Shown one piece after another: positions 1,806-35,611 of a stretch of DNA of 40,445 nt. The stretch covers positions 1 through 40,445 of the forward strand of contig NZ_JNUP01000072.1 of NCBI RefSeq assembly GCF_000758165.1. Reading direction: 5' to 3'. The translations under genes and the position numbers were made by a program. The notes under the pieces were generated by a model. The model worked only from the letters and a program-made list of their open reading frames with translations. It did no database searches and was not told the DNA's origin. Numbering within the stretch: position 1 is the first letter of the stretch; each line of letters starts with the position of its first letter. Source of the DNA: Spirochaeta lutea. GTDB taxonomy: Bacteria; Spirochaetota; Spirochaetia; DSM-27196; Salinispiraceae.

Positions 1806-4091
1806 TCAAGACGTACGATAAAAGGACGAGAGGTACTTGGCCGTCCGGCTATCCCGACATCCGGGGAGCCCCGCTGCCGGCCCCTGGTACAGTACCCGGC
1901 CCCCTTCCTTTCCGGCCCCGGGCCCGAGGTCCACAATCCACTGGGCATACTTAACTATATCCATATTGTGCTCTATCACCACCACGGTATTCCCCGCCCC
2001 CACCAGATCCTGGATGAGAACATGAAGGGTTTGGATATCCCCCCGATGCAGCCCCCTGGTTGGTTCGTCCAAAATATACACCTGTCCTCGGGTGCTCAGC
2101 CGGGCGGCCAGTTTCAGACGTTGGGCCTCTCCGCCCGAGAGGGTCGATAAGGCCTGACCCAGTTTGAGATACCCCAACCCGACCCGGAGCAGCAGTTCAA
2201 GCTGGGCTTTTATCTTCGACTGGCTGAAAAGCTCCAGGGCCTGATGGGCGGTCATCTCCAAGACCTCATCAATACTCACCCCGGCATAGCGGTAGGTTAA
2301 CACCTCAGGACGGTAACGCTTACCCTGGCACTCGTCACAGGGGGTCTGAACTGCATCCAGAAAAAACAACTCGGTGGAAATGACCCCCTGACCGCCGCAT
2401 TTTTGACAGGCGCCCTGGGAGTTAAAACTGAATAAGGACGCAGCCTGACCGGTAGCCTTGGAAAACAGCCTCCGTACCGCATCGAACATGCCCGTATAGG
2501 TAATCAGATTGCCCCGGCTTGTACGTCCGATTCCACCCTGGTCCACCACCACTGCCTCGGGGTAGGCGGCGATAAACTCCTGGTGCATCAAAGTGCTTTT
2601 TCCGCTTCCTGACACACCCGTAATACAGGTAAAGGCTCCCTGGGGAATCTTTACAGAAATATCCTGGAGATTGTTGGTGCGGGCGTGGTGTATTTCGTAA
2701 AACCGGCTGAACTCCTTCCGGGAAGGGATGACGGCCTCGTCTTGGAGAAGCCTCCCGGTAATGGAGGAACCCCCGTGTAAATCCCCCGGAGAACCCACAT
2801 ACACCACCTCCCCACCCTGGGCACCTCCACTGGGGCCCAGATCGACAACCCAATCAGCTCCCCGGATGATGGTCGGATCATGCTCCACCACCAGGACGGT
2901 ATTTCCCCTGTCCCGGAGATTCCGCAATAACGCCAAAACAGCCTCGGTATCCCGGGGATGAAGGCCGGCGGAGGGCTCGTCCAGGATGTAGAGCAGATCG
3001 GTCAGGTCACAATCCAGCTGACGAGCCGTTTTAACCCTCTGACTCTCCCCCCCAGATAGGGTCGACACCGGACGCTCCAGGGTCAGATACCCCAAGCCGA
3101 GCCGTATGAGCCCCTGGAGCAGTATGCGAGCTTTGGGGAGAATGGATTGTCCCAGGGGATCAGAAATCCCTTCCAACCACGGAAGCAGATCAGCCAGCTC
3201 CATGGCACAGAGCTGACCAATATGCCGGTCCCGGATACGCGACTCCCGGGCCCGGGCATTAATACGATGGCCGCCGCAGTCGGGACAGGTCCCATAGGAA
3301 AAATACTCCTCGTACACAGAGGTCTTTTTCCCCCCTCGGCTGGATTCCACAGGTTCCCCCCCCTCGGCCTCTCCCTTGGCGGTTTTTAAGCGGACAAGTC
3401 TCCGGGCAAATCCTTCCCAGTTTTTGATATAGGTTTCCACCCCGTGGGGTTTTGTAACCGGAACGGCTTCGGTATCGAGAAGCAGGTGCAGCTCCTGGGG
3501 GGTGAATTCGGATAGGGGTTTATCCGGGTCAAAAAGACCGATGCTTACAAGTTCCCGCCATAAAAATCCCCCGGGCCTGCATTCCGGATGATCCAGCGCG
3601 CCGTCCCTCAAACTCCGGTCCCAACGCAACAACCGTTCGCGGTTCACCTCTATGACCGTACCCAATCCGTGGCAGGCGGGACACATCCCCTCGGGATGGT
3701 TGAAGGAGTAGAGAAAACTCGGTCCGATCTGGGGCTGGGCCAGGCGGGAGAACAATAGTCGGAGATACGTCAGTATCTCCGTGGCGGTCCCGAGGGTGCT
3801 GCGCAGATTCGATCCCATGGGTTTTTGGTCGATAAGAATGGCGGTAGAAAGGTTGGTTACCTCATCCATATCCGGTCTGGACAGCTTCGGCAGGCGTGAG
3901 CGGGCAAAGGTAGAAAAGGTCTCCACCAGCTGCCGCTGGGCCTCGGTGTACAGGGTATCAAAAACCAAGGATGATTTCCCCGAACCGGATACCCCGGTGA
4001 ACACCACAAACCTATGCTTGGGTATCTCAACCATGATATTCTTGAGATTGTGGGTTCTTGCACCCCGGACAACGATACATGATTCAATCAT
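1806..4091 (-). CDS. UvrA-like ABC ATPase, short form lacking the UvrB-binding region
   Basis: This is a 761-residue relative of excinuclease subunit A with two ABC ATPase modules. Walker A is GVSGSGKSS near residue 33 and GVSGSGKST in the second half; the signatures are LSGGESQR and LSGGEAQR. Zinc-type CxxC pairs are present (CPAC, CPDC, CQKC, CDEC). Canonical UvrA is about 940 residues. Here the segment after the first ATPase strand ([11 protein letters not shown]) passes almost directly to [15 protein letters not shown], so the UvrB-binding and insertion regions are missing. Such short UvrA paralogues are linked to drug or antibiotic resistance (DrrC-like) rather than to nucleotide excision repair with UvrB. 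The start at 4091 has GGAGG five bases upstream. It is divergent from a MerR-type regulator that probably controls it. Confidence 0.9.
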
Positions 4092-4140: not shown

Positions 4141-4156
4141 GGTGGAGGCTTTCAAC

Positions 4157-4963
4157 ATGACCGAATATGGATATTCCACGGTGAGCTCGGCTGGGGAGCA
4201 TGAAGCGATTCACATCCGGTTCCCCCAGGGGCTCTCCTGCCCCAGGCTTGCCAAACTCATGGGACGCCACCCCAATACCCTCCGACGATATGAAGAATGG
4301 GGCTTCATTGAACCTGTTCGCCGGCAGCCCAACGGATACCGTATATACACTCCCAGACAAATCATTCAAGCCCTGTTTGCGGTCACGGCCCTACGGGCAG
4401 GCTTCCAGGACTGGCAGGGCCGGAGACGGGTAAAATCCATGATTTCCCTCATTGTAGAAGGATCATATTCCGAGGCTTCCATCCTCTTGGACCATCACCG
4501 CCGGGACCTGGAGGAACGGCTAACCCATGCTCTGGAGGTAAAGGAGATTGTAACGTCCCGGGGAGCCTGTTCTCCGGGGTGTACCCAACCGAATACCGAA
4601 ACACCCGGCCTTTCCCGAAAGGCAGCCGCCGCAGAGCTGGGAATTTCCCCCCATACCATCCGGGATTGGGAACGAAATGCTCTGGTAACCCCGGACTACG
4701 GTAAGCATCACTGGCGGCTCTACCATCCCCACCACCTGGATCAGCTGCGGATCATTCGCATGCTCCGCCAGGCGGGTTACAGCTACATGGGAATACTAAG
4801 CCTGCTTTATGGCTCAACCAGCAGCGAAGACCTGACCTTTGCCCGGGATACCTGGGATCAAACCTTGACGAGATTAATCGATGATTCCCGACGCATGGAT
4901 GAGTTACTCGCCGAGCTCATCCTCCTAAAAACAAGATCCATGGGGCTACCCCTGGAAGGGTAA
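4157..4963 (+). CDS. Transcriptional regulator with two MerR-type HTH domains
   Basis: This 268-residue protein has two separate MerR-type winged-helix motifs. The first is [19 protein letters not shown] with a following [12 protein letters not shown] wing. The second, about 140 residues later, is [19 protein letters not shown] with [15 protein letters not shown] helical linker with one CSPGC pair joins them, and the C-terminal tail is a helix. ATG 4157 was chosen because GGAGG sits eight bases upstream; a GTG at 4142 is in frame but poorly placed. Ordinary MerR proteins have one DNA-binding domain and dimerise through a coiled coil, so this may bind DNA as a pseudo-dimer. It is divergent from the UvrA-like gene, which suggests local drug-responsive control. 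The ligand is unknown. Confidence 0.8.
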
Positions 4964-5039
4964 CCATCGGGGGCCCGTCCAAGGGGTAGCTCCACCGGCG
5001 TTGAAACGCCCTCGGTCCCGTACTCCCTAGCCGGGCCCA

Positions 5040-6644
5040 TCACCACTCAATAATTCCACCTGCCACCGTCAATCCGGCCCCTACCGAGCAGAGCAGCACC
5101 CGCTGTCCCGGTTTTAACAACCCCTGCTCCTCCATATCGCTCAAACACAGGGGAATGGTCGCACCGGAGGTATTGCCGTACTTCTCGATGTTGAAAAATA
5201 CCCGCTCCATGGGGATGCCGAGTTTCTTTGCTACCGCCTTGAGAATCCGCCGGTTTGCCTGATGGGGTACAACCCAATCAATCTGATCCAGGGTTAAGCC
5301 CTGGGCCTGGGCTGCCGCCTCAATGATCTGGGTGAAGGCCGTCACGGCCCCGCGGAACATCCGTCCGCCATCCATAAACCAGTATTCATCCCCGGGTTCT
5401 AGGTCCGTCCCAGGGGGGTAGGCGCTGCCACCCGCTTTTCGGTAAATAATATCATAGCCCTCGGAATCGGCCTGCAGTATGAGATCCCCGAGCCTATGGC
5501 TGGCGGAGGGCTGCCCCCCAGGATTAGAGGACAGCACCGCTGCTCCGGCCCCGTCTCCGAAAAGGAAGGCCGTGGCGCGATCCGTTTTATCGGTAAATCG
5601 GCTCATCACCTCTCCGGCTACCACCAACACATTGGTGTATCCTCCGGTCTGGATGAACTGCCGGCCTACCGACAGGGCATAGAGCCATCCGCTGCATGCC
5701 GCAGCAATATCGAAGGCCGGAATGGTGGTGCACCCAAGTTTTTGTTGGAGAGCGCAGGCAGTGGCCGGCAGGGGCATATCCGGGGTTGTGGTTGCCAGAA
5801 TAATCAGGTCCAAGTCTCCGGGGGTGATTCCAGCCTTTTTAAGAGCCTGTTTACTCGCCTGGAAGGCCAGGTCGCTGGTACTTTCCTGATCGACCCACCG
5901 ACGTTCCTTAATGCCCGTCACCTTCTCTATATAGTCCTCTGTAATATCATCAAAATCCTGTAGGAAGGCAGAGTTCGCCACGACCTTGCCCGGGACGTAG
6001 CTCCCAATTCCGCGGACAAAACATGGCAAGAGTCCCCCTGCACCATTTGAGGCCGCCTCCTTCGCATCCAAATACCCCCCGATATCCGCCGCAGTCAGCC
6101 GACCCTCAGGGCCGGTGCCGGGTATCGTTGCGAGTTCAGCCTCAGTAATGTTGTTATCCCGAACCATCTTCTTTAACCGGGGACTGAGCTGGGTTCTCGA
6201 GGCACCGGCGGCATTTCCTCGGGAAGGTCCGGATGCAGCGGTGCTGCTTCCGGAACCGGCACCGGGGCCGCCACCCTCGGGAGCCGAAGCATCCCCCGGA
6301 CCGGCTTGGCCTGGCACCGCGGTACTACCGGCACCTGCGCTGCCCAAATGATCCTCTGCACCAGCCCCGGAAAGATGCTTCACATCATGGTCCGAGGTTT
6401 CCACGGTCAAGAGAGTCGCCCCCACATCCACCACATCACCCTCATCACAGGCTAAGGATTCAACAGTACCGGCACAGGGGGCTTCAAAGTCCCAGGTGGA
6501 TTTCTCGGTTTCGATATCTGCAATATGCTGACCCTTGGTGATGGTATCACCCGGTTTCACTAGCCAGGCTACAAGAATTCCATCTACGATAGATTCACCG
6601 ACAAAGGGCATGGGAATAGATGCAATAAACGTCTGCTCACTCAT
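5040..6644 (-). CDS. Lipoyl domain - E1/E3-binding domain - beta-ketoacyl-ACP synthase III fusion
   Basis: This 534-residue protein has E2-like N-terminal parts and a FabH-like catalytic part. Residues 1-85 are a lipoyl domain with the modification motif IETEKS (Lys48). Residues 92-152 are a Gly/Ala/Pro/Ser-rich flexible linker. Residues 152-193 are a peripheral subunit-binding domain (LSPRLKKMV...GTGPEGRLTAADI). From about residue 207 to the end is a complete KAS III: nucleophile Cys317 in DIAAACSG, His461 in VVPHQANRRI and Asn491 in YGNTSGATIP. The E2 acyltransferase domain (HxxxD) is absent. The AAGGAAGG ribosome-binding site precedes ATG 6644, 35 bases after the E1 gene. The inferred role is transfer of an acyl group from E1 via lipoamide to the KAS III cysteine and condensation with malonyl-ACP. 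The domain calls are firm; the coupled reaction is inference. Confidence 0.9.
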   Translation of the reverse strand: MSEQTFIASIPMPFVGESIVDGILVAWLVKPGDTITKGQHIADIETEKSTWDFEAPCAGTVESLACDEGDVVDVGATLLTVETSDHDVKHLSGAGAEDHLGSAGAGSTAVPGQAGPGDASAPEGGGPGAGSGSSTAASGPSRGNAAGASRTQLSPRLKKMVRDNNITEAELATIPGTGPEGRLTAADIGGYLDAKEAASNGAGGLLPCFVRGIGSYVPGKVVANSAFLQDFDDITEDYIEKVTGIKERRWVDQESTSDLAFQASKQALKKAGITPGDLDLIILATTTPDMPLPATACALQQKLGCTTIPAFDIAAACSGWLYALSVGRQFIQTGGYTNVLVVAGEVMSRFTDKTDRATAFLFGDGAGAAVLSSNPGGQPSASHRLGDLILQADSEGYDIIYRKAGGSAYPPGTDLEPGDEYWFMDGGRMFRGAVTAFTQIIEAAAQAQGLTLDQIDWVVPHQANRRILKAVAKKLGIPMERVFFNIEKYGNTSGATIPLCLSDMEEQGLLKPGQRVLLCSVGAGLTVAGGIIEW

Positions 6645-6679
6645 AAAAACCTTCCTTAAACCTTTTTAAGCATAGTTAC

Positions 6680-8659
6680 TCAGTACGCCAGAAGCTCGCG
6701 CAGGGCTGTCTCAATCCCTGCCCTACTGGGTCTGTACACCGACTCAAGCTCGGGAGCAAAGGGTACCGGTGTATCCGGTGCAGAAATCAGGCGGGGCGGA
6801 GCCTCCAGATCAAAGAAATTCCGCTGAGCGATTTCGGCAACGATGCCGGCTCCTATGCTACCGGTCTTCCACGACTCATGCACCACCAGCAGCTTGTGGG
6901 TCTTCTCCACGGATGCACTGAGGGTATCAAAATCGAAGGGTTTGAGAATCCGCGGATCTACAACCTCAATAGTATAATCACCCTCAGCCTCGATGGCTGC
7001 TACCGCAGCAAGGCATTCATGCATGGCGGCACCGTAGGCAACCAGGGTCAGATCCCCGCCCTCTTTATAGATCCGGGCCTTCTCCAGGGGATCCACTCCT
7101 CCGGAGAATTCAATGTCCCCTTTCAACCGGCGGTACAGGTACTTGCTCTCAAAAAACATCACCGGATTCGGATCGTACAAGGCGCCTATTAGCAGGGAAA
7201 AGAAATCCTCGGCAAAGGAGGGATACACAATCTTCAACCCGGGAAAACTTCCGAACATTCCCTCCAAATCCGCGCTGTGGAAGGGCCCGTAACTCAGCCC
7301 CCCGCCCGTGGGCATCCGAATGGTTACGGGCAGTCCCAGTTCATTCCGGAAATAGTAACTCCCGGCATTTACGCCTATCTGGGTCACCGCATCCGTCGCA
7401 AAATCGGAAAACTGCATCTCGACCACCGGACGCAGGCCCATTTGAGCGGCGCCCACGGCGAACCCTGTGAAACCCGACTCTGCCAGGGGCATGTCCAATA
7501 CCCGGGGCCGACCGTACTTCTCAAAAAGCCCCTTGGTCGCCTTGAAGGGCCCCCCGTAGGTCCCCACATCCTCCCCCATGAGAATAACCGCCGGATCATG
7601 CTCCATGGCGTGGTCCAAGGCCGCATTCACAGCCTGGACAGGGGTTACTCCCTGGAGAGAGAGGGGCGGCAGTCGGGGGGTATCCTCTCCCCGGGACGGT
7701 GCGTAGGCCGACCAATTCGTTTTCTCAGGGCTCACCTTAGCAAGGCCGATTGCACGGTTGGACTCCGTTGAAATATGTTCCTCCCACTGACGCTCCAGGG
7801 ATTCCAATTCCTCAGGGGTGGACAGCTCCTGCTCTATAATGTACCGGCGCATAACCTCAAGAGGATCCTCTTTCCTCCAGGCTTCCAGGTCTTCCCGGGG
7901 AACATACTCCGCAGTGTCATAGGCAGCATGTCCGGCTAGCCGGTAGGTAATTGTTTCCAGAATGTAGGGTTCCGGATGGTTCCGGAGTTCTTCGGCAATC
8001 TCGGCTACCTGGGTGTAGACCTCCATGGCATTGGTAGCTCGAATGGTCTTTCCCCGAATCCCATAACCAGCGGCTCGGGAAGATAGGGACTCGCAGGCAT
8101 ACTGGTGTTTTATAGGGGTAGAGTAAGCCCATTGGTTATTCTCTATCATGAAGATCACCGGCGTTCCTAATACTGCAGCAATATTCATAGCCTCATGAAC
8201 ATCCCCGGTACTGGTCCCGCCGTCTCCAATGATCGCTAATCCCAGGGATTCTATTCCCTGCTGGCGCCGAGCATGAACTGCACCAACCACATTAGGAAGC
8301 ATGGTGCCTAGATGGCTTACCATGGGTAGCAAACCCCGTTGAGGTGCGCCATGGTGAACGTTTCCATCCTTCCCCCCTGTTGGACTTTCCTCATTGGCCA
8401 GATAGTGGTTAAACATATGGAATACGGATAAGCCCCAGACCAGATATCCGCCGAAATCCCGCTGCATAAAATTACAGATATCCCGCTGGGGATCCAGAGC
8501 CATGGTGGTTCCTACAATGGCCGCCTCATTGCCTTCGCCGCTGGTAACCGTACCTTTTACCAGTTGCTCGCGATACAATTCCCAAAGGCGGTACTCGCTC
8601 TTCCGGGAAAGAAACATGTAGTTATACATTTTAAGAGCAATATCAGACTTCTCAAGCAT
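6680..8659 (-). CDS. 2-oxoacid dehydrogenase E1, alpha and beta subunits fused
   Basis: This 659-residue thiamine-diphosphate enzyme decarboxylates a 2-oxoacid and acylates a lipoyl arm. The alpha half (about 1-320) has the ThDP motif starting GDG at 145-147 and ending NN at 174-175, plus the HHGAPQRG and YRLAGHAAYD segments. The beta half (about 340-659) has MGEDVGTYGG, PLAESGFTGFAVGAA and a C-terminal KLLVVHESWKTGS segment. In most bacteria alpha and beta are separate genes; fused forms of this size are known. Substrate (branched-chain oxoacid, pyruvate or acetoin) cannot be told from sequence alone. AGGAG lies five bases before ATG 8659. It is the first gene of a pair with the lipoyl-KAS III fusion, which carries the only lipoyl domain in the window. 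No E3 or conventional E2 gene is nearby. Confidence 0.9.
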   Translation of the reverse strand: MLEKSDIALKMYNYMFLSRKSEYRLWELYREQLVKGTVTSGEGNEAAIVGTTMALDPQRDICNFMQRDFGGYLVWGLSVFHMFNHYLANEESPTGGKDGNVHHGAPQRGLLPMVSHLGTMLPNVVGAVHARRQQGIESLGLAIIGDGGTSTGDVHEAMNIAAVLGTPVIFMIENNQWAYSTPIKHQYACESLSSRAAGYGIRGKTIRATNAMEVYTQVAEIAEELRNHPEPYILETITYRLAGHAAYDTAEYVPREDLEAWRKEDPLEVMRRYIIEQELSTPEELESLERQWEEHISTESNRAIGLAKVSPEKTNWSAYAPSRGEDTPRLPPLSLQGVTPVQAVNAALDHAMEHDPAVILMGEDVGTYGGPFKATKGLFEKYGRPRVLDMPLAESGFTGFAVGAAQMGLRPVVEMQFSDFATDAVTQIGVNAGSYYFRNELGLPVTIRMPTGGGLSYGPFHSADLEGMFGSFPGLKIVYPSFAEDFFSLLIGALYDPNPVMFFESKYLYRRLKGDIEFSGGVDPLEKARIYKEGGDLTLVAYGAAMHECLAAVAAIEAEGDYTIEVVDPRILKPFDFDTLSASVEKTHKLLVVHESWKTGSIGAGIVAEIAQRNFFDLEAPPRLISAPDTPVPFAPELESVYRPSRAGIETALRELLAY

Positions 8660-32671: not shown

Positions 32672-33616
32672 ATGAGAAACGTCATGAGAACACAATCTAC
32701 TCAGTTCATAGTTCTGGGGATTATAATGCTGCTTTCGTCCTGTACGCTCCAGCCGACCACCGAGCCGGAACGGTATGCCCTAGTGTTCGGGGTAAACGAT
32801 TACCCGGCTGATTACAATGATCTGTCCGGAGCCGTGAATGACGCCGAGTCCATCCATCGTGTTTTGGAATCACGGGGATTTAATTCCCAGGTATTCACCA
32901 ACCAGAACGCCACCCGCCAGGCTATGGAGGAAGAGATATCAGCCCTCGAATCCCAACTCTCACCCGGAGACATGCTCCTGCTCTACTATGCCGGTCACGG
33001 AATACAGGGAACCATTGGCGACGAATACGACGAGTTCATCATTCCCGCCCTCACACAAAACGCCGGACTTTCAGAGATCCGGGATCAGGTTATAAACTCC
33101 CGGGACCTTAAAACAATTCTCAGCGGCCTCTCCGGGGTGGAGATTGTCCTCATCTTTGATGCATGTAATACCGGGGGATTCGTTGAACAGACCAACGAGG
33201 TCATCAATACCCTACCCCGAAACTACAGCCCCCTGCCATACATCCAGGAAGGAAGCGGATATTCGGTCCCCTTCTTCTCTGCCGTCGCAGAGTTCTTTAA
33301 AGCTGATTCACCAACCCGGGATGACCCGCCCCCCCCGGAAATCCACGGTATAACCGCCGCAGGACCGTCCGAAGAAAGTTGGGAGTTTGCCAGCCGGGGA
33401 GTTTTCACCACAGCCTTCGTGGATGGCATTGAATCTGGAAGGGCAGACGTTAACAGAGACAACCGAATAACCCTCGATGAGATCTACATTCATACCTTTA
33501 ATACAATCCAGAATACATGGAATTCCCAATACGGAGCGACAACCGGGGCGGACTACGCCTTCTTACCCCACCGAACGGGGAATCCCTACGATCTCATCCT
33601 GATCCAAGAAAATTAA
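32672..33616 (+). CDS. Caspase-family (C14, orthocaspase-type) lipoprotein
   Basis: This 314-residue cysteine protease has a lipoprotein signal with Cys24 in LLSSC, so it is probably membrane-anchored outside the cytoplasm. The caspase fold starts at YALVFGVNDY. The catalytic dyad is His109 in YYAGHGIQG and Cys165 in IFDACNTGGF. A perfect EF-hand-like loop (D259-E270; D-x-N-x-D pattern ending in E) lies near the C-terminus, suggesting calcium dependence as in metacaspases. Bacterial caspase relatives act in proteolytic signalling or cell death; the substrate is unknown. It follows the possible barrel gene in one unit and converges on uvrB. Confidence 0.87.
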   Translation: MRNVMRTQSTQFIVLGIIMLLSSCTLQPTTEPERYALVFGVNDYPADYNDLSGAVNDAESIHRVLESRGFNSQVFTNQNATRQAMEEEISALESQLSPGDMLLLYYAGHGIQGTIGDEYDEFIIPALTQNAGLSEIRDQVINSRDLKTILSGLSGVEIVLIFDACNTGGFVEQTNEVINTLPRNYSPLPYIQEGSGYSVPFFSAVAEFFKADSPTRDDPPPPEIHGITAAGPSEESWEFASRGVFTTAFVDGIESGRADVNRDNRITLDEIYIHTFNTIQNTWNSQYGATTGADYAFLPHRTGNPYDLILIQEN

Positions 33617-33625
33617 GCCCCGTTG

Positions 33626-35611
33626 TCAATTCATCTCTTTTATTTTCTCAATCTCATCCCGTAACACCGCGGCCTGCTCAAACTCGAGGTTCTTTGCATG
33701 CTCCAACATCTGAGCCTCCAGCGCCTTAATCAGCTTCTTCCGTTGAGCCGGTACCAGGAGATTATGATCCTTCTTAATGATTTCAAGATTCTGCTCTTCA
33801 TCCTTGCGTTTATCTTCCTTTTCCCGCTGAAGGATACTACGAATGTTCTTTCTGATAGTCTGGGGGGTTATTCCGTGTTCTGTATTATACTCTATCTGCT
33901 TTGCACGCCGACGGTCGGTTTCCTGTATGGCTTCTTCCATCGCAGGGGACATTCTGTCCGCATACATAATCACTGTACCATTCTCATTCCGTGCGGCTCT
34001 GCCTATGGTCTGGATCAGACTGGTGGCTGAACGGAGAAAACCGATCTTGTCCGCATCAAGGATAGCAATCAAACTTACCTCCGGAAGATCTAGCCCCTCC
34101 CTGAGAAGGTTAATTCCAACCAGCACGTCAAACGCCCCGCTCCTCAAATCGGTGAGAATCTCCACGCGTTCAATGGTTTCAATCTCCGAATGTAAATACC
34201 GAACCTTCAGCCCCATTCCCAGAAGGTAATCGGTAAGATCCTCCGCCATTTTCTTTGTGAGGGTTGTTATCAGGGTCCTGTCGCCCTGCTCCGTCCGCTT
34301 TACAATTTCACTGTACAGATCCTCAATCTGGCCCGCTGTGGGACGAACCTCAATAACCGGATCGAGAAGCCCTGTGGGCCGGATAATCAACTCACTAACC
34401 TGCTTAGACTTAGCAAGCTCCTCATCCCCAGGAGTAGCAGAAACAAAAACAGTCTTATCGAGAAGATTCTCAAACTCCGGATACATCAAGGGCCTATTAT
34501 CCAAGGCGGAGGGTAGACGAAAGCCGAAGTCCACTAAATTCTGTTTACGTGACCGGTCTCCGGCATACATCGCCCGCACCTGGGGCAAGGTAACATGGGA
34601 TTCATCAACAAAGGTTAAAAATTGATCCGGAAAATAATCAAGGAGGACTGCAGGTCTCTCCCCCGCATTCCTAAAACTCAAATGGCGGCTGTAATTTTCA
34701 ATCCCCGAGCAATAGCCCATCTCATAGAGCATCTCGATATCATATTTAGTACGACTCCGTAGCCGTTGCGCCTCCACAAGCTTGTTCTGGGACTCTAGCC
34801 TTTGGAGCTGTTCATCTAGCTCCTCCTCTATCAAATGAATCGCCTTATGAACACTATCCTCGGGCATAACAAAGTGTTTTGCTGGGTATACAATAAGCGT
34901 CTCCAGCTCATGGAGAACATTCCCCGTCACTGGATGGATCTCAGATATCCGCTCCACCTCATCCCAGGCTAACTCTATCCGATATGCTTCCTGGGTGTAG
35001 GCAGGATAGATTTCAATTACATCACCCCGAATTCTGAAGACCCCGCGTTGCATCACCGCATCGTTGCGCTCATACTGAAGGCTTACCAGCCGCGCTCGCA
35101 AATCACTGATCTGCAGGTGACTACCTCGATCAATGCGGATTTTCATGTCCCGGTAATCTCTCGGGCTTCCAAGTCCATAGATACACGAAACGGTGGCAAC
35201 TACAATAACGTCCGGTCGCTCCAGCAGGTTGGCCGTTGCTGAAAGCCTAAGGCGGTCAATCTCATCATTGATGGAGGAATCCTTCTCGATATAGAGATCT
35301 TTGGAAGCAACGTATGCCTCAGGCTGGTAGTAATCATAATAGGATACAAAATACTCCACCGCGTTATTGGGAAAGTACTCTTTAAACTCACGGTACAACT
35401 GGGCTGCCAAGGTCTTATTGTGGCTCAGTACCAAGGTAGGCAACTGAATACGTTCAATAATCTTCGCCATAGTGAATGTCTTGCCCGAACCTGTGACCCC
35501 CCGAATCGTTTGAAAGGGATGTCCCTGGGAAATACCGCCGCTGATTGAATCAATTGCCTTTGGTTGATCGCCCGATGGGCTATAATCGGATGCTACAGTA
35601 AATTTATTCAC
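33626..35611 (-). CDS. uvrB: Excinuclease ABC subunit B
   Basis: This 661-residue damage-verifying helicase of nucleotide excision repair has Walker A GVTGSGKTFTMAK, the beta-hairpin region around YFVSYYDYYQPEAYV, the DESHVT box, and GINLLREGLDLPEVSLIAILDADK. The C-terminal UVR motif (LEAQMLEHAKNLEFEQAAVLRDEI) for UvrC/UvrA contact is present. Length matches the family. The GTG start at 35611 sits seven bases after the htrA stop. It is the last gene of the rnhA-comM-htrA-uvrB unit. A canonical uvrA is not here; the UvrA-like gene at 1806 lacks the UvrB-binding region and is unlikely to be its partner. Confidence 0.97.
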   Translation of the reverse strand: MNKFTVASDYSPSGDQPKAIDSISGGISQGHPFQTIRGVTGSGKTFTMAKIIERIQLPTLVLSHNKTLAAQLYREFKEYFPNNAVEYFVSYYDYYQPEAYVASKDLYIEKDSSINDEIDRLRLSATANLLERPDVIVVATVSCIYGLGSPRDYRDMKIRIDRGSHLQISDLRARLVSLQYERNDAVMQRGVFRIRGDVIEIYPAYTQEAYRIELAWDEVERISEIHPVTGNVLHELETLIVYPAKHFVMPEDSVHKAIHLIEEELDEQLQRLESQNKLVEAQRLRSRTKYDIEMLYEMGYCSGIENYSRHLSFRNAGERPAVLLDYFPDQFLTFVDESHVTLPQVRAMYAGDRSRKQNLVDFGFRLPSALDNRPLMYPEFENLLDKTVFVSATPGDEELAKSKQVSELIIRPTGLLDPVIEVRPTAGQIEDLYSEIVKRTEQGDRTLITTLTKKMAEDLTDYLLGMGLKVRYLHSEIETIERVEILTDLRSGAFDVLVGINLLREGLDLPEVSLIAILDADKIGFLRSATSLIQTIGRAARNENGTVIMYADRMSPAMEEAIQETDRRRAKQIEYNTEHGITPQTIRKNIRSILQREKEDKRKDEEQNLEIIKKDHNLLVPAQRKKLIKALEAQMLEHAKNLEFEQAAVLRDEIEKIKEMN

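Follow-up and report, generated by a model that had tools for sequence, protein, structure and literature searches.

Relation to described systems

Bacterial fatty acid synthesis is taught as starting from acyl-coenzyme A (acyl-CoA) via FabH, a 3-oxoacyl-acyl carrier protein (ACP) synthase III (KAS III). The DNA analysed here is a 40,445-nucleotide (nt) stretch of the Spirochaeta lutea contig NZ_JNUP01000072.1 (the window), in which two adjoining genes encode a fused alpha/beta 2-oxoacid dehydrogenase E1 (P0002) and a protein with a lipoyl domain, a peripheral subunit-binding domain (PSBD) and a KAS III domain (P0001). Judged from its sequence, this pair is probably an enzyme that primes a ketide chain independently of CoA. 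In Bacillus, the branched-chain 2-oxoacid dehydrogenase (BKD) complex and FabH likewise combine decarboxylation by an alpha/beta E1, transport on a lipoyl arm and KAS III condensation with malonyl-ACP, but there an HxxxD-type E2 releases acyl-CoA and a separate, CoA-binding FabH takes up the acyl group (PMC6461809). The inputs of the window pair are the same and the kind of product is probably also the same. However, the acyltransferase is absent, the KAS III is carried on the lipoyl protein with its CoA contacts changed, and the acyl-CoA step appears to be skipped.

With the E2 proteins of 2-oxoacid dehydrogenases P0001 shares the lipoyl domain, the Gly/Ala/Pro-rich linker, the PSBD and a gene adjoining that of an E1, but it differs from them in the absence of the PF00198 catalytic domain. 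With the FabH enzymes of Escherichia coli and Staphylococcus aureus it shares the fold, the Cys-His-Asn triad and the ACP-docking Arg, whereas the N-terminal lipoyl domain and PSBD and the replacement of Thr28, Trp32, Arg36, Asn210 and Phe304 set it apart. The glycolyl loaders NapB/NapD, QncN/QncL and SclQ1-4 are similar in that an E1 and a lipoyl protein are proposed to hand an acyl group to an ACP without free acyl-CoA. Some of those described, however, keep an acyltransferase and a dedicated ACP and form no C-C bond, whereas the terminal domain of P0001 is a KAS III and no gene cluster was recognised around its gene. In line with a preliminary description of the window, which knew of no such enzyme, no description of a lipoyl-KAS III/FabH protein was found in the open-access literature searched.

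The gene pair and its recurrence

Both open reading frames (ORFs) were found uninterrupted at their expected coordinates on the minus strand (Table 1). The preliminary description had assigned to P0001 a lipoyl domain (Lys48), a PSBD and a KAS III (Cys317, His461, Asn491) in one frame; this was borne out by Pfam and NCBIfam, and the homologue of P0001 shares all four residues. The KAS III region matched ACP_syn_III (residues 311-374, 90.2 bits) and ACP_syn_III_C (446-534, 122.4 bits) and scored 318.9 bits against NCBIfam TIGR00747 fabH (cut-off 292.1). The HxxxD acyltransferase had been reported as missing, and Pfam indeed gave no PF00198 match in P0001, the C-terminal 325 amino acids (aa) of which are KAS III. 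The upstream neighbour is the fused E1 that had been proposed, with the E1_dh, Transket_pyr and Transketolase_C domains, the thiamine diphosphate (ThDP)-site Arg and the active-site His of the alpha/beta type. Modelled alone with AF2, the KAS III domain reached a pLDDT of 87.6 and aligned with FabH structures with Z scores of 46-47 (47 for S. aureus FabH, 1zow); the fold is taken from this domain-only model, the AF2 model of the whole of P0001 from a two-row alignment having a pLDDT of only 44.8. A degenerate KAS III was considered and rejected, as both the catalytic triad and the fold are kept.

Patterns from P0001 were scanned against 84,980 species genomes, the sole search reaching into phyla beyond the spirochaetes. 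One close relative emerged, a Spirochaetes metagenome-assembled genome (MAG; locus L003, genome G393), with both genes adjacent and the fusion matched full-length. Among relatives of this genome four further carriers were found (G407, G432, G409 and G433). The KAS III domains of the five other genomes carrying the gene pair are 58-65% identical to that of the window. The gap between the E1 stop and the fusion start is 35, 12, 23, 11 and 9 nt in the window genome (G000), G393, G407, G432 and G409, respectively, and about 8 nt in G433, giving a range of 8-35 nt; in G433 the fusion gene is split by contig ends, with both pieces and the E1 present. Within a class sample the fusion occurred in 5 of 296 genomes. 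These five, and no others, also hold the fused E1 (1,057 to 1,432 bits); no further E1 scored above 434 bits. Pairwise identities of E1 and of KAS III co-vary (r 0.84). The preliminary description had named an assembly error as a possible source of the fusion; since the same gene pair recurs in five more genomes, six in all, both an assembly artefact and a chance fusion were rejected. The fusion is nevertheless rare and patchy, because in a first sample of 393 genomes of the phylum only the window genome has a full-length copy. No record in the plasmid collection covered 80% of this architecture or of the single-chain architecture described below, and no lipoyl-KAS III fusion was found on viral contigs.

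Coenzyme A contacts of the KAS III domain

The adenine of CoA is contacted in FabH by a hydrogen bond from Thr28 and by stacking of Trp32 and Arg151, and the phosphopantetheine is bound by Arg36 and by the residues numbered Asn209 and Asn246 in Yersinia pestis, which are Asn210 and Asn247 in E. coli (PMC4606726). In all six window-type fusions positions 28, 32, 151, 36, 210 and 247 are Ile, Tyr, Arg, Val, Gly and Asn, so that four of the six contacts (Thr28, Trp32, Arg36 and Asn210) are altered. For comparison, 51 other, stand-alone KAS IIIs were aligned (34 from spirochaetes, those of E. coli and S. aureus, seven from viral contigs and eight from plasmids). Position 32 is Trp in 51/51 of these and Tyr in 6/6 fusions; the Gly at position 210 (6/6) has no counterpart among the 51; and position 304, which is Val in the six fusions, is Phe in 49 and Met in two. 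The catalytic Cys112, His244 and Asn274, together with Asn247, are kept in 6/6 and the ACP-docking Arg249 in 5/6. The list of Protein Data Bank structures includes the Mycobacterium tuberculosis FabH mutant entries 2aj9 (W42A,R161A) and 2ahb (R46A,R161A).

It should also be noted that a KAS III on an IMG/VR viral contig (L123 1486-2415) has Ile28, Val36 and Ala151 with Trp32 kept; its neighbours were assigned by eye as desaturase-like and ribonucleotide-reductase-like genes.

A second, single-chain architecture

Beyond the pair itself, which is as far as the preliminary description went, the module was found both to recur and to exist in a single-chain form. Frames of about 1,120 aa with KAS III matches turned up in the relatives searched for the fusion. 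Two such chains were scanned and hold E1_dh, Transket_pyr, Transketolase_C, Biotin_lipoyl and ACP_syn_III in one polypeptide; neither a PSBD nor an acyltransferase was detected in these two proteins. A profile built from them matched 15 of 393 genomes of the phylum at E <= 1e-150. Eleven of these match near full length, G130 encodes a 1,209-aa protein with all domains, and the chain of G329 ends at a contig edge with the lipoyl and KAS III domains present. G203 has a broken copy, and the fifteenth match, in G211, shares the layout but bears the ordinary acyltransferase at the position of the KAS III. The E1-lipoyl-KAS III single chain is thus counted in 14 of the 393 spirochaete genomes, with one copy broken (G203), Pfam having been scanned directly in part of the 14 and the remainder resting on a full-length profile match and the KAS III alignment.

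In the 12 aligned copies of the single-chain KAS III, Trp32 is replaced by Asp, Glu or Gly and Arg151 is lost throughout, Thr28 is Trp or Leu, and Asn210 is Pro or Gln; Cys112, His244, Asn274 and Arg249 are kept in 12/12. Across both architectures, then, Trp32 is replaced in 18/18, His244 and Asn274 are kept in 18/18, and Arg249 in 17/18.

In the KAS III tree each architecture forms one clade (100/100). The best tree separates the two, with the window type near S. aureus FabH, and a common clade for both was not rejected (p-AU 0.55). The E1s of the two architectures are only 31% identical, which favours separate assembly without proving it; from these comparisons the two architectures were likely assembled separately.

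Two Streptomyces plasmid matches (H21, H22) cover E1 alpha/beta and lipoyl parts (query residues ~5-750) and adjoin or overlap an annotated non-ribosomal peptide synthetase, and it is possible that they are natural-product relatives of the E1-lipoyl unit. In two genomes a gene for aconitase AcnA is divergent to the single-chain fusion (L165 2494-5223 and L166 2053-4737).

Proposed reaction and alternatives

In the proposed reaction, E1 would decarboxylate a 2-oxoacid with ThDP and reductively acylate the lipoyl moiety that Lys48 of its partner carries. The loaded arm would then swing to the KAS III domain within that protein, where Cys317 would accept the acyl group and His461 and Asn491 would support decarboxylative condensation with malonyl-ACP to 3-oxoacyl-ACP. 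Dihydrolipoamide dehydrogenase (E3), encoded elsewhere and probably recruited via the PSBD, would reoxidise the arm. The predicted net reaction is 2-oxoacid + malonyl-ACP + NAD+ -> 3-oxoacyl-ACP + 2 CO2 + NADH, and the KAS III would stand in for two enzymes at once, the E2 acyltransferase and a conventional FabH dependent on acyl-CoA. Its likely use would be the priming of branched-chain (or other non-acetyl) fatty acids, with an ordinary FabH serving acetyl-CoA alongside. A channel of this kind from E1 through acyl-lipoyl to KAS III and malonyl-ACP without free acyl-CoA was put forward in the preliminary description, and at the sequence level it gains support from the recurring operon, the loss of CoA contacts and the single-chain form, all of which, like the domain architecture and the kept triad, are read directly from the alignments and scans.

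The genomes that carry the module also bear on its role. The window genome encodes a complete pyruvate dehydrogenase (PDH) cluster (E1alpha, E1beta, E2, E3) and a 2-oxoglutarate dehydrogenase (OGDH) cluster, both with canonical E2s, and a stand-alone FabH beside genes resembling FabG and FabF. Each of the six window-type genomes also encodes a stand-alone FabH with Trp32, which makes the fusion an addition. In G393 no PF00198 domain was found anywhere in the genome; a strong E3 (579 bits) and LplA-like ligases are encoded alongside the fusion.

Three other readings of the KAS III were weighed. It could act as a surrogate E2, passing the acyl group from lipoamide through the Cys to CoA, so that the complex would be an ordinary 2-oxoacid dehydrogenase making acyl-CoA with a non-orthologous acyltransferase. 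The domain does occupy the acyltransferase's usual place, and transacylation is within reach of KAS III enzymes, but this reading is considered unlikely: loss of the CoA clamp, seen in both architectures, argues against it, as do the retained His and Asn of malonyl decarboxylation and the ACP-docking Arg, and canonical E2s are already supplied by the complete PDH and OGDH complexes of the window genome. Loss of the clamp also argues against a conventional FabH working on free acyl-CoA, for which the lipoyl domain and PSBD would merely be an anchor to a 2-oxoacid dehydrogenase complex, capturing acyl-CoA made nearby. That the domain passes the FabH curated cut-off and models as FabH would fit such an arrangement, as would the textbook route from BKD through acyl-CoA to FabH (PMC6461809). 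It is nevertheless regarded as very unlikely, given that the Trp32 universal in the 51 other KAS IIIs is replaced in all 18 lipoyl-linked ones, that the lipoyl lysine motif is intact and that G393 lacks an E2 acyltransferase to supply acyl-CoA alongside.

It is also conceivable that the KAS III catalyses no condensation and simply hands the lipoamide-bound acyl group over to an ACP, a carrier loading like that proposed for the lipoyl-E2 proteins of glycolyl units. E1/lipoyl systems charging an ACP are described for the tetrahydroisoquinoline and scleric acid clusters, and the near-complete retention of Arg249 is compatible with docking of an ACP. Against this stand His244 and Asn274, which a plain transacylase does not need and the invariance of which argues against a mere transacylase. 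Moreover, neither a secondary-metabolite cluster nor a dedicated ACP gene was recognised next to those copies of either architecture that were read, ORFs of <100 aa being unlisted and the neighbours not systematically annotated. Carrier loading is likewise regarded as very unlikely.

Several observations weigh against the CoA-independent condensation favoured here. Arg151 and Asn247 are retained in 6/6 window-type fusions, and S. aureus FabH has Met at the place of Arg36, so the Arg36 change alone is not diagnostic. Of the five complete members, only the window protein and L003 have a PSBD that scores above the Pfam cut-off; in L045, L046 and L047 it lies below detection, and recruitment of E3 may therefore be weak. 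GcvH is present in 6/6 window-type genomes, so that the lipoate machinery and E3 do not serve the fusion alone. In the window E1, residues equivalent to Ser162 and Leu164 of human branched-chain 2-oxoacid dehydrogenase (BCDH) are the same, with Gln for Tyr113 and Tyr for Ile226, the alignment being uncertain around Phe85. Salinispira pacifica, the probable source of G203, makes iso-C15:0 despite a single-chain copy that is broken in the record, and therefore either another route exists or the record has errors. Finally, we infer the chemistry, the lipoylation, malonyl-ACP as the acceptor, the recruitment of E3 and the substrate from sequence.

Substrate and significance

The human BCDH acyl pocket is formed by Phe85, Met87, Tyr113, Met146, Leu164 and Ile226 (PMC12655727). 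Phe85, Tyr113, Met146 and Ile226 of this pocket are present in the single-chain E1s, with a few copies varying. In G349 leuA and leuB precede the single-chain gene on the same strand, at a distance of 279 nt (L164 1682-4479 for the leu genes and 4758-8090 for the fusion), leuA scoring 774.6 bits (cut-off 697.4) and leuB 489.3 bits (cut-off 353.2). The leucine pathway yields 2-oxoisocaproate, the isovaleryl unit of which starts iso-odd fatty acids; the fatty acids of S. pacifica include iso-C15:0 (11.7%) and anteiso-C15:0. The preliminary description had suggested a perhaps branched product. For the module this is plausible through the leuA-leuB neighbour in one genome; the window E1, which matches the BCDH pocket only in part, may act on such a substrate.

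With less assurance than the CoA-independent priming itself, we lean towards regarding the module as a new reaction, in which oxidative decarboxylation of a 2-oxoacid would give an acyl-lipoyl group used directly by KAS III for C-C bond formation with malonyl-ACP, without acyl-CoA, in two spirochaete architectures possibly assembled twice, to prime branched-chain fatty acids. Were this so, some spirochaetes would channel keto-acid oxidation into fatty acid initiation in a single machine, and their branched lipid make-up would be tied to 2-oxoacid pools and NAD+, not to acyl-CoA. It would also be a natural case of a swinging lipoyl arm rewired to serve a condensing enzyme, of use in branched-lipid engineering, and loss of Trp32 would be a residue signature for finding other KAS IIIs that do not use CoA.

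Table 1. Features of the window gene pair and loci of the single-chain architecture.
Feature	Position	Strand	Basis or remark
Fused alpha/beta 2-oxoacid dehydrogenase E1, 659 aa (P0002)	6680..8659	-	Pfam E1_dh, Transket_pyr, Transketolase_C; orthologues in 5 genomes
E1 alpha part: E1_dh, residues 17-303	7751..8611	-	Pfam; ThDP-site Arg and active-site His conserved
E1 beta part: Transket_pyr 341-510, Transketolase_C 527-649	6713..7639	-	Pfam
Lipoyl-PSBD-KAS III protein, 534 aa (P0001)	5040..6644	-	Pfam, NCBIfam; orthologues
Lipoyl domain, residues 10-80	6405..6617	-	PF00364 (Biotin_lipoyl) 62.6 bits, cut-off 22.1
Lys48 codon, predicted lipoylation site	6501..6503	-	ETEKS motif; conserved 6/6
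Gly/Ala/Pro-rich linker from lipoyl domain to PSBD, residues 81-152	6189..6404	-	Sequence; length differs among orthologues
PSBD, residues 153-188	6081..6188	-	PF02817 (E3_binding) 31.1 bits, cut-off 23.7
KAS III domain, residues 210-534	5043..6017	-	Pfam, NCBIfam; AF2 model
Cys317 codon (= E. coli FabH Cys112)	5694..5696	-	Conserved 6/6
His461 codon (= E. coli FabH His244)	5262..5264	-	Conserved 6/6
Asn491 codon (= E. coli FabH Asn274)	5172..5174	-	Conserved 6/6
Tyr238 codon at FabH Trp32 place (CoA adenine stacking)	5931..5933	-	Tyr 6/6
Ile234 codon at FabH Thr28 place (adenine hydrogen bond)	5943..5945	-	Alignment; role per PMC4606726
Val242 codon at FabH Arg36 place (phosphopantetheine contact)	5919..5921	-	Alignment; Arg absent in S. 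aureus FabH too
Gly427 codon at FabH Asn210 place (phosphopantetheine contact)	5364..5366	-	Gly 6/6; 0/51 stand-alone
Val521 codon at FabH Phe304 place	5082..5084	-	Val 6/6
Single-chain E1alpha-E1beta-lipoyl-KAS III (P0005)	L138 1421-4765		Domain scan; L138 and L143 are the same gene
Single-chain E1alpha-E1beta-lipoyl-KAS III (P0006)	L139 1213-4599		Domain scan
Further single-chain loci	L143-L154, L161		
G203 single-chain fusion, broken into three reading frames in the record	L158 3826-7342		
G211 single-chain E1alpha-E1beta-lipoyl-acyltransferase	L159 1647-4838		PF00198 137 bits at the place of the KAS III

Neighbouring genes

In the MAG, the region upstream of the gene pair (L003 200-2619) holds genes that, judged by eye, look like those for subunits of an indolepyruvate ferredoxin oxidoreductase. 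In the window, a regulator that combines two MerR-type DNA-binding domains in a single polypeptide (4142-4963, plus strand) is convergent with the fusion gene. A short UvrA-like protein of 761 aa, scoring under the UvrA curated cut-offs, is encoded at 1806-4091 (minus strand), far from UvrB at 33626-35611. A caspase-like (Peptidase_C14/CHAT) protein was found at 32672-33616 (plus strand), and a Mutator-family transposase lies at the contig end (3-1241, minus strand).

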